DNA of 64,000 nucleotides, from NCBI RefSeq assembly GCF_000022545.1, contig NC_012883.1, positions 1,604,276 through 1,668,275 of the forward strand, given 5' to 3'. The notes under the pieces were generated by a model. It had not been told where the DNA came from. It did no database searches and saw nothing but the letters and a program-made list of their open reading frames with translations. The stretch comes from Thermococcus sibiricus MM 739. GTDB lineage: Archaea > Methanobacteriota_B > Thermococci > Thermococcales > Thermococcaceae. The translations under genes were made by a program, and so were the position numbers. This document shows positions 30,705-42,859 of the stretch, one piece after another (position 1 is the stretch's first letter; every line of letters starts with the position of its first letter).

Positions 30705-31925
30705 ATGCAATGGAAGAAATTAAGTGTCTTATTAATCGGTTTGCTGGTTTTGAGTTCTTTTGGAAGTGCTGCAGTGTCGGGTAATAAAATCCCTCTACCG
30801 CTTGCTGAAAAAGCCGCCAGAAGCTACGTGAATTGGATTGCTGCCAATATCCCTGACTTCAAAGAATGGGAGAATGCAACTCTCGGAGAGCCTGTCGTGT
30901 ACTATTTCCCCAATGGCGAGAAAAGCGTTTATGAGTTTGCAGTCTTCAAAAACGGTAAAAATGTCGGATTTATCCTTGTTTCGGCAAGAAAAGACATGCC
31001 TCCAGTTTTGGAGTTCAGTAAGGCAGAACCACCAAGCTGGAATTTAGAGAAGGCTAAAGAACTTGCAGAAAAGAAAGGCTATAAGGCTGGAAAACTACTC
31101 TATTACGGAGCACTAACTTATGGTATTAATATTGGAAACGGAAAAACAATAGGCTTAAGAGACATGAAAGTGAGAAAATACCCAATGAAAGTAGAACTAA
31201 AATTCAACAAAGAGAGAGCAAGAAAAGAATGGGAAAAAATTGCAAATAGTGCTATCACCAGTACAAAGGGGGCAGTACCAATGTCATCTACTCCAATTTT
31301 TATTTGGAACAAGGTTTATGGAGTTCCAGCGTGGACATCCACAGACTCAGGAGATGCTGATATTCAGTATCCAAACAATGTGGGTCCGGACCCCGATCCA
31401 TGGGAAGAGTGGGATGGATGTGCTCCAATATCAGGCTCAATGATAATCGCATATTATGAACTGCAATTACAGGACGATTGGAACAGGGAGGCAATAATCG
31501 ATATTTTACACCACACAATGGGCACACTAAATGGGGGAGGCACCCTCGCTCCACAACAAGTTACAGCTGGTATAGCACTTTTTGACGAGGAGTATAATCA
31601 ACTTTTACAAGAAGGCATAGTCTCAGAAAGTATATCTCATGAATTTTCTGCTTATACTGATTTCTATGTATCCGAAAGCGATGTAATTCGAGAAATTGAC
31701 GACAATCAGCCATTTGTACTAAGCATGAATTATCACTGGTTTAATGGTCATGCGGTTGCAGTAATTGGCTATACCGGATGGAAGTACAACGATGGTGGTT
31801 TAGAATATGTTGAGTTAAGTTACATAATTGTTCACGATCCTAACAAGCCGGGAGAAGATGATTACATAGCTTGGAATGACTGGACAAGTGCAGCGGCAAG
31901 TTTCATCACTGCAACAGAGGTGTAA
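30705..31925 (+). CDS. Secreted C39-like (papain-fold) cysteine peptidase
   Basis: This encodes 406 residues. A signal peptide (LSVLLIGLLVLSSFGSAAVS) comes first. A propeptide-like region at about residues 30-190 contains ARSYVNW and GFILVSARKDMPPVLEFS, as in PepSY/C10-type prodomains. The peptidase domain from about residue 200 has catalytic Cys in EWDGCAPISGSMIIAYY, His in NGHAVAVIGYTG, and Asn/Asp in IVHDPNKPG. The sequence therefore supports an extracellular cysteine peptidase with a maturation segment. The next gene starts 4 bases after its stop, so they form a pair. The substrate is unknown. Confidence 0.78.
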   Translation: MQWKKLSVLLIGLLVLSSFGSAAVSGNKIPLPLAEKAARSYVNWIAANIPDFKEWENATLGEPVVYYFPNGEKSVYEFAVFKNGKNVGFILVSARKDMPPVLEFSKAEPPSWNLEKAKELAEKKGYKAGKLLYYGALTYGINIGNGKTIGLRDMKVRKYPMKVELKFNKERARKEWEKIANSAITSTKGAVPMSSTPIFIWNKVYGVPAWTSTDSGDADIQYPNNVGPDPDPWEEWDGCAPISGSMIIAYYELQLQDDWNREAIIDILHHTMGTLNGGGTLAPQQVTAGIALFDEEYNQLLQEGIVSESISHEFSAYTDFYVSESDVIREIDDNQPFVLSMNYHWFNGHAVAVIGYTGWKYNDGGLEYVELSYIIVHDPNKPGEDDYIAWNDWTSAAASFITATEV

Positions 31926-31929
31926 ACCC

Positions 31930-32727
31930 ATGAAGAAAAATTTTGTTCTTTTGCTTGTTTCATTCTTTTTCCTTGTTGGAGTTTTGTTTAAATTGTCTGA
32001 CAGGACAATACTGTTTGTTCCCTTCTTTATATTTGCCCTCGTCTTCTCGTTTACTAGCGAAAAGCCTCTAATTGGATTTGCTGCATTTGGAGGGAGCTTG
32101 TTGTTTTCCAAAGTAGTTGAGGAATGTTGGGCACTTTTTTCTGACCTTTATAAAATTCAGGGATGGGTAGCTTGGATTATTGGAATATTTGTGCCGAGTA
32201 TTATATTCTCCCATTTTGTATCCAAAATTACACAAAAAAGCAAGCGTACTGTTTTCATTGTTTTCGTTCTTTTCCTAATCTTAACAAGCATGAATATAGA
32301 CTCACCCCCGCAAGGAGTTGCATTTCGAACAGCTTATGCCCTTGGAGCATCTTCTAAGGACTATGATGATAACTGGCTTGAGGGTTATCCCTTCCTACCC
32401 AAGCGCTATGGTGGATTATGGGCAGGAAAGATCTCCCAGTATTATGTTGCAGTATACGTTTGGCGGTGCCATACTTTCTGCCCATTAGGAGGATCCCTAT
32501 GCCGGAAGGCGTATGATAAATCTTTGAAGAACTTAAAACTGAGGGGATTTAAGGAGCAGAACATTATAACAAAACGGAGAGCGGAGAGCAAGAGTTTGCT
32601 CTCAAATGGGACAACCATGATATATCTCGAATGCTCGGGAGAAGTTGGGTACCAAAGGCTAATCTTCCTTGTTGGGAACGCCAACGAAACTGAAAATTTT
32701 CTCCGGTTTATTGGGGAACTTAGATAA
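31930..32727 (+). CDS. Polytopic membrane protein with cysteine-rich outer domain
   Basis: This encodes 265 residues from the ATG at 31930, with GAGGTG upstream. About four to five membrane helices occupy residues 5-135. They are followed by a soluble domain with four closely spaced cysteines (RCHTFCPLGGSLCRK) and a further Cys near the end. No family is recognised. Its 4-base spacing from the C39-like peptidase suggests a functional pair, for example membrane anchor, regulator or substrate. That is inference. Confidence 0.65.
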   Translation: MKKNFVLLLVSFFFLVGVLFKLSDRTILFVPFFIFALVFSFTSEKPLIGFAAFGGSLLFSKVVEECWALFSDLYKIQGWVAWIIGIFVPSIIFSHFVSKITQKSKRTVFIVFVLFLILTSMNIDSPPQGVAFRTAYALGASSKDYDDNWLEGYPFLPKRYGGLWAGKISQYYVAVYVWRCHTFCPLGGSLCRKAYDKSLKNLKLRGFKEQNIITKRRAESKSLLSNGTTMIYLECSGEVGYQRLIFLVGNANETENFLRFIGELR

Positions 32728-32825: not shown

Positions 32826-32882
32826 GCGGTCAGCCCCGCGAAACCTCCTCACCACTCAGGGGGCTCCAGACTCATCATTCCA
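32826..32882 (-). ncRNA. C/D box guide sRNA
   Basis: On the minus strand the boxes fall in textbook archaeal order. The C box is ATGATGA (32872-32878). A 12-base guide GTCTGGAGCCCC is followed by D' box CTGA. A 3-base spacer GTG leads to C' box GTGAGGA. A second 12-base guide GGTTTCGCGGGG ends at D box CTGA (32830-32833). By the D+5 rule the guides would direct 2'-O-methylation of a C (D' guide) and a G (D guide) in their target RNAs. A TATA-like ATTAAAAG (about 32905-32912) lies about 27 bases upstream. The rest of 32728-32974 holds no gene I can support. Confidence 0.72.
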
Positions 32883-32974
32883 TTTTTTTATGTAAACCTT
32901 CTTCTTTTAATCTTTTGTTTTAAGGTGAGATTGCTTAAGAAGTGAGAAAAAATTAACAAAATGGCCCCCATTGG

Positions 32975-33769
32975 TTAGATAACATAATGTTCAGGTCTCC
33001 TATCTTTAAACAGGTCATTGAACTCGTTAAGCTTTTTATTCCTTGCTTTCTCTACGTTTATTTCCACTAATCCAACTTCCTCCTTGTTCTCGCTTGCCCT
33101 GAGCAGGATCTCTGCTTTTGGTGAGTTTATCTGGCTCATCCCTATGAATCTCAACCCCCTCTCCTCTCCGATTCTATTTGCGGTTATGCTAAACACCCTG
33201 TTTTCAAGGCTCCTTATTGGCATGGCCTTTGGTGCGTAGGGCAGAACGAGGTTTGCAGGATGTGCAACTATGTCAGCTCCTTTAAGAGCAAGAGTTCTCA
33301 TGGCTTCTGGAAAAATCCAGTCAAAACATATCATAATTCCAACTTTCGCTATGCCTATGTTGAACACATGAAACCCGAGATTTCCGGGCTCAAAGAAGAG
33401 CTTCTCCCTGTAAAATAGATGAATCTTGCGATACTTCCCTATATAGCCCCCTCCTATTGGGCCTACTATTACGGCAGAATTATAGAGTTTCCCTTTTTCA
33501 TCTTTTTCCGCAGTCCCGGCCACTATAAACATATCATGCTCCTTTGCCTGCTCCATTAGAAATTGGGTTGTTTCACCATCCGGGATTTGCTGAGCTATTT
33601 CTTCCACTTCTTCCTTGGTTTCAAAATTATACCCTACATCAAAAAGCTCCGGTAATACAATTAACTTAGCATTTTGTTTTGCGGCATCTTTTATCAGCGT
33701 TTCAGCTTTGCTTAAATTAGCATTTAGATCCAAAAGCTTCGGTTCCATTTGGATAAACCCGATCTTCAT
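32975..33769 (-). CDS. Nitrilase-superfamily amidohydrolase
   Basis: This encodes 264 residues. The catalytic triad is visible: Glu in LIVLPELFDVGY, Lys in GKYRKIHLF, Cys in VGIMICFDWIFPE. The length and sequence resemble the Pyrococcus abyssi nitrilase that prefers aliphatic dinitriles, but omega-amidase or N-carbamoyl activity cannot be excluded. GAGGGG precedes the ATG at 33769. It is a single-gene unit. Confidence 0.87.
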   Translation of the reverse strand: MKIGFIQMEPKLLDLNANLSKAETLIKDAAKQNAKLIVLPELFDVGYNFETKEEVEEIAQQIPDGETTQFLMEQAKEHDMFIVAGTAEKDEKGKLYNSAVIVGPIGGGYIGKYRKIHLFYREKLFFEPGNLGFHVFNIGIAKVGIMICFDWIFPEAMRTLALKGADIVAHPANLVLPYAPKAMPIRSLENRVFSITANRIGEERGLRFIGMSQINSPKAEILLRASENKEEVGLVEINVEKARNKKLNEFNDLFKDRRPEHYVI

Positions 33770-41256: not shown

Positions 41257-41604
41257 CCGACTGACTTTTCTTTTCGAGAGATATACTCAACCAAAACGAC
41301 AATGTAATGAGGAGCAAGACCTTGAGTGGGAACTAGCATCCCGCATGGGGGGCACACTATGTTATCAAGTGAACTGTCGGTGTAATTAATATTTGGGAAT
41401 TTCTTCATCTGAAATGAAACGATTTTTAGGACTTCTTTGCACAATACAAAGGGCAGTCCTCATAGATGAAACAAATCAGAGTAAAATAGAAGCAAGTGCA
41501 CAATTCTAATCATGGGCAGGCCGTACGGGGTTATGTCCATGCAACTTGGTTTCCACTTCTTAACACATACCCTCGATGTTTTAGTATCCAGACTAAAGAC
41601 TTAC
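41257..41604. other. Gene-free stretch, probably decayed sequence
   Basis: No intact gene is seen. A minus-strand frame here holds CPPCGM and some coding-like segments (GLAPHYIVVLVEYISRKEK), which may be a relic of a lost gene, but it lacks a start signal and overlaps the PIN remnant. Confidence 0.3.
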
Positions 41605-41639
41605 CTGACCTCCTCCCCGCCTTAAAAGGCGAGGCTTTC
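41605..41639 (-). mobile_element. IS605/IS1341-type right-end relic
   Basis: The minus strand reads GAAAGCCTCGCC, TTTTAA, GGCGGGGAGGAGGTCAG. This is a stem (CCTCGCC with GGCGGGG) flanked by GAAAG and the GGAGGTCAG tail that I recall from the right ends of archaeal IS200/IS605 (TnpB) elements. No tnpA or tnpB is present beside it, so it is a solitary end. TTAC lies directly beside it at 41601-41604. Confidence 0.5.
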
Positions 41640-41683
41640 AAAAGAAAAATGTAATGAGTTAGCCAAAAGTTAACTCGAAAACT

Positions 41684-42859
41684 TCAAGGTGTGAGATCGA
41701 GGAGGAAAAAGGGCACATCTTCCTTTTCGAGCACGGTGACAGTCTTTGGATGCCTCCTGTGGGCTTTCCCTGCCTTCACCTCGACCTTCAGGTTCCCCGC
41801 TATCGCATCAACTTCGTATGAGTTCCTGTAATAATAAACTTTCCCAAACTTCCTGTAGAGGTGTTCCTGGACAAGCCACTCGTAGAGGGCGTCTTCCCTC
41901 AACTGGGTGCCACTCCAAGCCGAGAAGAGTTGCGCCAACAACGGGTCCCTAAAGAAGAATTTCTTCTCTCGCCTATAGAGTACCCGCCCCCCCTGCTTGA
42001 GATATGCTATTCCGAGCAGGTACAACTCTCTAAAGAACTCGATGTAATCCTGCACAACTTTGTAGGAGTAACCGGAGGTCATTTCAGCTAGTGCCCTAAA
42101 GCTTGTCGCCGAAGGAGCGCTTTGAACCACTGTGGTAATTGTCTCCTTAGCTATTTCAAGGTTTTTCCCAAAACGGACGAATTCTCCTATATAAGCCCCT
42201 AAAAGGTCGTCCATGGGCATGCCGTTGATCGTTCCTGGGAAGCCACCAGTTTTCAGGTACTCTCCAAAGAGTTTCAGCGTTTTTTCTCTCTGGAGCTCTG
42301 GCCGTTTCAAACCCATAATCTCAACATATTCTCCGAAAGATAGTGGCATAACTTCGAGTGTTGTTCCTTTTCCCCTCCTCCCCGGGAATAGTTCTATGTC
42401 CCGCTTTACCCGCAGGGAACTTGATCCCGTGACCGTGACGACATTGTTCTCCAAGAGGCCTGCATCAATGAGTGGTTTGACTCCCTTCCACCACCCATCG
42501 AGCGAAGTGGCCTCGTCGAGAAATATATAACCCGTTTTGATGTCTTCCTTCTCCCTAATGGCTTGGAACTCTCTTATCAAGGCCGAGAGCCCTTTGTAGT
42601 CTGGAAGGATCTCAACATTGATGTATAGGATAGACTCGGGAGGGTTTTCCTTCAAGAGCTTTTGAATTAGGAGTTTTATTCCTGTTGTTTTTCCAACCTG
42701 TCTCGGACCTAGAACGAAGTTTAGCGAGAAAGGTTCGAGTGAGAGCTTTTTAATCCACTTGGGCCACCAGTGGATTTTCTGCTCCCTCCACCGCCTTGCA
42801 TGGTAGTCCTCTTCTCCCTCCCACCAAGGATTCATGTAGGTTAAATCTCCAAACCTCAT
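41684..42859 (-). CDS. Archaeal AAA ATPase with DUF4143 domain
   Basis: This encodes 391 residues. The AAA_14-type ATPase domain has Walker A LGPRQVGKTT (about residue 50), Walker B YIFLDEAT and sensor VTGSSS. The C-terminal DUF4143 part ends in a nuclease-like pattern EVDAIAGNLKVEVKAGKA (Asp, Glu-x-Lys). Such genes are common, mobile-prone and of unclear function in archaea. AGGTGGTGG precedes the ATG at 42859. Its higher GC content than the neighbours suggests horizontal transfer. Confidence 0.85.
   Translation of the reverse strand: MRFGDLTYMNPWWEGEEDYHARRWREQKIHWWPKWIKKLSLEPFSLNFVLGPRQVGKTTGIKLLIQKLLKENPPESILYINVEILPDYKGLSALIREFQAIREKEDIKTGYIFLDEATSLDGWWKGVKPLIDAGLLENNVVTVTGSSSLRVKRDIELFPGRRGKGTTLEVMPLSFGEYVEIMGLKRPELQREKTLKLFGEYLKTGGFPGTINGMPMDDLLGAYIGEFVRFGKNLEIAKETITTVVQSAPSATSFRALAEMTSGYSYKVVQDYIEFFRELYLLGIAYLKQGGRVLYRREKKFFFRDPLLAQLFSAWSGTQLREDALYEWLVQEHLYRKFGKVYYYRNSYEVDAIAGNLKVEVKAGKAHRRHPKTVTVLEKEDVPFFLLDLTP

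Follow-up and report, generated by a model that had tools for sequence, protein, structure and literature searches.

The locus at 32826-32882 on the minus strand of the stretch of DNA analysed (64 kb from Thermococcus sibiricus, here called the window) encodes sR23, a methylation guide RNA already catalogued for Thermococcus and Pyrococcus; its family is known, so that it is no discovery. The D' guide of this box C/D sRNA very probably directs methylation of C32 of tRNA-Trp(CCA). By sequence reading, the sRNA is a 57-mer situated in a gap between converging genes, and its minus-strand order, from 32882 to 32826, is TGGA-ATGATGA-GTCTGGAGCCCC-CTGA-GTG-GTGAGGA-GGTTTCGCGGGG-CTGA-CCGC. The features of the locus are the following:

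32828..32880, minus strand: sR23 box C/D sRNA gene, Rfam-matched extent (RF01138, model 1-54 of 54)
32872..32878, minus strand: C box ATGATGA, from the sequence (ATGATGA in 59/60 homologues)
32860..32871, minus strand: D' guide GTCTGGAGCCCC, 12 nt; predicted target tRNA-Trp 29-39, methylation site C32 (pairing and conservation)
32856..32859, minus strand: D' box CTGA, from the sequence (CTGA in 59/60 homologues)
32853..32855, minus strand: spacer GTG between D' and C', from the sequence (3 bases long in 52/60 homologues)
32846..32852, minus strand: C' box GTGAGGA, from the sequence (the most frequent form, 26/60 homologues)
32834..32845, minus strand: D guide GGTTTCGCGGGG, 12 nt; candidate target tRNA-Trp C39-A46, site G42 (pairing scans)
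32830..32833, minus strand: D box CTGA, from the sequence
32904..32912, minus strand: TATA-like GATTAAAAG, possibly a promoter element (roughly 26-34 bases ahead of the C box)

The Rfam model RF01138 (sR23) matched the locus over its full length with 73.4 bits (E 7e-16), above the curated gathering score of 45 bits, and related C/D families of Rfam gave matches below threshold only. Strict and loose C/D patterns, searched on both strands of the window, had the locus as sole match, and zero matches were obtained in 100 mononucleotide shuffles of the window, confirming the original prediction of a C/D sRNA on the minus strand. The archaeal set of boxes is present in order, C (RTGATGA), D' (CTGA), C' (RTGAnGA) and D (CTGA), with guide, spacer and guide of 12, 3 and 12 bases, an arrangement shared by most homologues; every element was recovered in the place and with the spacing first proposed for it. 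The fold of the 57-mer was barely more stable than those of shuffled sequences (z -0.7), which speaks neither for nor against this class. A chance resemblance or a pseudogene, for which no supporting point was found, has a negligible probability, given the Rfam E value, the lack of the motif in the window shuffles, and boxes and guides that are intact and conserved throughout the order; it is refuted by this conservation.

Searches with the Rfam model detected sR23 in 60 of 61 Thermococcales genomes, in 58 of them above the Rfam cut-off, and normally as a single copy. The weak second hits that were examined are a different C/D sRNA, and a paralogous sR23 copy, considered for Pyrococcus and one other genus, was therefore rejected. 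This second C/D sRNA, with the D' guide GTACGGGGCCAC or a close form, was found at loci L092-L100 of Pyrococcus-type and g4 genomes as weak hits of the sR23 model.

The gene lies, as had been predicted, in an intergenic gap. On one side an ORF without Pfam match ends at 32727 (plus strand), and on the other an ORF for a carbon-nitrogen hydrolase ends at 32975 (minus strand). The TATA-like box claimed upstream of the gene, with a TTAAAA stretch at 32910-32904 (minus strand), 26-32 bases ahead of the C box, is well supported, the interval from -37 to -26 being enriched in A/T in an alignment of 51 homologous loci. In these loci G-rich letters directly precede the C box. TATA boxes of T. kodakarensis precede the start sites by about 23 bp (PMC4247193). 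It is plausible that sR23 has its own promoter, of which the TATA-like sequence is a candidate element.

Two other features of the window were recorded. The ORF at 30705-31925 (plus strand, 406 aa) contains a C39-like peptidase domain and matches a Spi-type protease inhibitor propeptide weakly, with a score under the cut-off. At 41595-41676 (minus strand), directly downstream of the ORF at 41684-42859 (minus strand), Rfam HgcC (RF00062) gave a match below threshold (36.8 bits, gathering 50, E 7.6e-5), in which the 3' hairpin CCUCGCCUUUUAAGGCGGGG, with AGGAGGUCAG after it, shows good conservation and the initial portion of the model is shortened; it is possibly a divergent or truncated HgcC RNA.

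To identify the target of the D' guide, the whole genome (1,845,800 bases, one contig) was searched. Neither guide core has an exact complement in it besides the sRNA gene itself, contrary to the expectation that the guides suit rRNA targets. With one mismatch allowed, the D' guide matched the intron-containing tRNA-Trp(CCA) gene, located at G000:C1:1674945-1675086 (minus strand), about 6.7 kb past the end of the window. The intron position, 37/38, was deduced from the CUCC/GGAG pairing of the bulge-helix-bulge motif, whose bulges have 3 bases, and the anticodon arm after splicing is GCGGG-CUCCAGA-CCCGC. Positions 2-12 of the D' guide form 11 consecutive Watson-Crick pairs with G29-C39 of the spliced tRNA-Trp, and position 5 faces C32. 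The nucleotide methylated by a C/D guide is the one that faces the fifth guide position upstream of the D or D' box, so that Cm32 is predicted, in agreement with the C originally expected as the methylated base. In the unspliced precursor 10 of the 11 pairs are already formed, since the intron, too, begins with A.

The complement search proposed at the outset, in rRNA or tRNA, was thus positive for tRNA (the 11 pairs with tRNA-Trp) and negative for rRNA as regards D'. Among 16S, 23S, 5S, SRP RNA and RNase P RNA, no good rRNA site was found for the D' guide; its best rRNA site is an 8-base stretch including a G-U pair, against 11 Watson-Crick pairs with tRNA-Trp. The 11-base run is the longest in the stable-RNA pool of this genome (9,156 bases), and 0.9% of composition-preserving shuffled guides reached a run of this length in the same pool.

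Conservation is considered stronger evidence than this shuffle statistic for the proposed pairing of D' with tRNA-Trp. Guide positions 3-11 are unchanged in all 60 homologues and position 2 is kept in 59; the end positions 1 and 12 are under no pairing constraint, and position 12, the end of the duplex, varies. On the other side, the target arm is identical in 59/59 parsed tRNA-Trp genes (60 genes in the set, 59 of them parsed; none was found by the search in genome G011). When all distinct D' guides were ranked, tRNA-Trp C32 was first, followed by a tRNA-Leu site and an SRP site, both of which need G-U pairs, and one of 60 permutations of whole D' guides by position scored equally well. Guide and tRNA are both nearly invariant, and hence there is no compensatory change that would prove the pairing. 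The 3' acceptor of tRNA-Thr with its CCA (GGGGCTCCA), with 9 pairs ending at CCA, was also considered as D' target and was rejected because positions 10-11 of the guide, used by tRNA-Trp, are invariant as well. The guess of an rRNA target is replaced in this way by a tRNA target that is specific, conserved and testable.

For the D guide, first predicted to act on a G, there are several candidate matches. In this genome it forms 9 contiguous pairs with 16S around G352, 11/12 pairs with 23S around G2117 with a mismatch beside the methylation site, 12/12 pairs, counting four G-U, with the T-arm/acceptor junction of tRNA-Gln, and 8 pairs with tRNA-Trp C39-A46, site G42. Neither a 9-base run anywhere in the stable-RNA pool (P = 0.20 against shuffled guides) nor the tRNA-Trp match (P = 0.48) is significant for this genome alone. 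In Pyrococcus-type D guides, positions 7 and 8 alternate between C and T. This switching preserves the pairing where the target base is G, as it is in tRNA-Trp or tRNA-Gln, and the change at position 8 breaks the pairing with the A of the rRNA sites, which argues against both of them; the rRNA sites set against these guides were those of the present genome.

That sR23 guides rRNA methylation with one or both guides, for example at 16S G352 or 23S G2117 through the D guide, is in consequence improbable. The 9 contiguous 16S pairs and the 11/12 23S pairs speak for it, as does the fact that archaeal C/D sRNAs with known targets act mostly on rRNA (PMC4644070). However, the D' guide is without a good rRNA site, the 9-base D match is unremarkable and the 23S mismatch adjoins the methylation site. 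In 16S and 23S the D guide has only interrupted or 9-base matches, both lost in Pyrococcus-type guides.

The mean pairing over all distinct D guides was highest for tRNA-Gln (7.5), with 7.07 for tRNA-Trp, so that the two score about equally over all species. The higher mean is the point in favour of a D guide directed at another tRNA, for instance tRNA-Gln, with D' still acting on tRNA-Trp C32. Such an arrangement seems rather unlikely, since the tRNA-Gln match depends on G-U pairs and is outscored by tRNA-Trp when Pyrococcus-type guides are considered; with these guides the scores of 16S nt 1265 and of two sites in tRNA-Leu are a little above that of tRNA-Trp. The D' and D guides are partly complementary to each other (AGCCCC / GGGGCT), which would be explained if the D guide acts on G42, situated on the opposite strand of the same tRNA-Trp stem. 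As a hypothesis, then, G42 of tRNA-Trp is a candidate D target beside tRNA-Gln and others of similar score. The reading of sR23 as a double guide of one anticodon arm, with D' on C32 and D on G42 of tRNA-Trp, is put forward tentatively, as a possibility that is open to considerable doubt. If true, the number of guided sites in the tRNA-Trp arm would be unusually high, counting the intron's own sites C34 and C39, and in Pyrococcus, for which the search gave no TrmJ family member, sR23 would be the sole known Cm32 route.

In C/D RNPs, L7Ae, Nop5 and fibrillarin assemble on the boxes and methylate the target nucleotide. We infer that sR23 is transcribed from the minus strand in Thermococcus sibiricus, assembles with these three proteins and acts in methylation. 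In the proposed duplex, the D' guide GTCTGGAGCCCC would bind nt 29-38 of the tRNA-Trp(CCA) anticodon arm, in the 5' strand of the stem and the loop; C39 would join after splicing, and C32 would receive a methyl group on its 2'-OH from fibrillarin. The partner of the D guide may be the 3' strand of this arm, from C39/C40 to A46, with G42 as the site. A fibrillarin gene is present in the genome (G000:C1:729178-729840, E 7e-102).

Published data on tRNA-Trp bear on the Cm32 assignment in both directions. According to PMC7668247, the Lowe-lab snoRNA database has C32, C34 and C39 of P. furiosus tRNA-Trp as predicted sites of C/D-guided methylation, and sR23 is, judging from its D' guide, probably the P. 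furiosus guide behind the C32 prediction. The tRNA-Trp C32 assignment with order-wide conservation, in agreement with this database prediction, is what the present analysis adds. On the other hand, most predicted positions, including C32, were undetected in the P. furiosus tRNAs analysed (PMC7668247), which counts against the assignment. In T. kodakarensis, tRNA-Trp carries two m5C and four Cm, one of the latter at position 6 (PMC12255305); another is Cm34 (PMC7668247). The presence of four Cm counts in favour of the assignment. The failure to detect Cm32 in P. furiosus would also suit a role of sR23 as a helper of pre-tRNA-Trp folding or splicing, in which the guides separate both strands of the anticodon arm and methylation is secondary or absent. 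The D' target contains CUCC, which at the splice site also takes part in the central helix of the bulge-helix-bulge. Nevertheless, the boxes and the 12-base guide spacing are of the active-guide type and the pairing at D' position 5 is invariant, and a helper role appears very unlikely. Methylation of tRNA-Trp C32 through D' is the reading retained here.

A protein route to the same modification has also to be considered. Archaeal TrmJ is a tRNA Cm32 methyltransferase in other organisms (PMC6313347), and this genome has a gene of the TrmJ family (TIGR00050) outside the window (G000:C1:930682-931383). This homologue could make Cm32 unaided, which counts against the assignment to sR23. TIGR00050 was found in 43/61 Thermococcales genomes and in none of the Pyrococcus-type (g3) genomes, whereas sR23 is present in nearly all. 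Perhaps there are two routes to Cm32 in Thermococcus sibiricus and the guided route alone in Pyrococcus, and, more broadly, it may be asked whether in Thermococcales the guided route and the TrmJ route, which needs protein only, overlap or replace each other.

Compared with the Rfam family sR23 (RF01138; Pyrococcus and Thermococcus), the locus has the same boxes and the same D' guide, and differs from the consensus slightly in the C' box, in the D guide and, by one base, in the D guide length. TrmJ yields Cm32, the modification predicted for sR23, but is a protein enzyme without guide RNA. The box C/D RNA sR50, contained in the archaeal pre-tRNA-Trp intron, guides C34 and U39/C39 (PMC7994747, PMC6313347). 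Guide class and target tRNA are common to both RNAs; sR23, unlike sR50, is a separate gene, trans-acting only, with C32, and perhaps also G42, as its predicted site.
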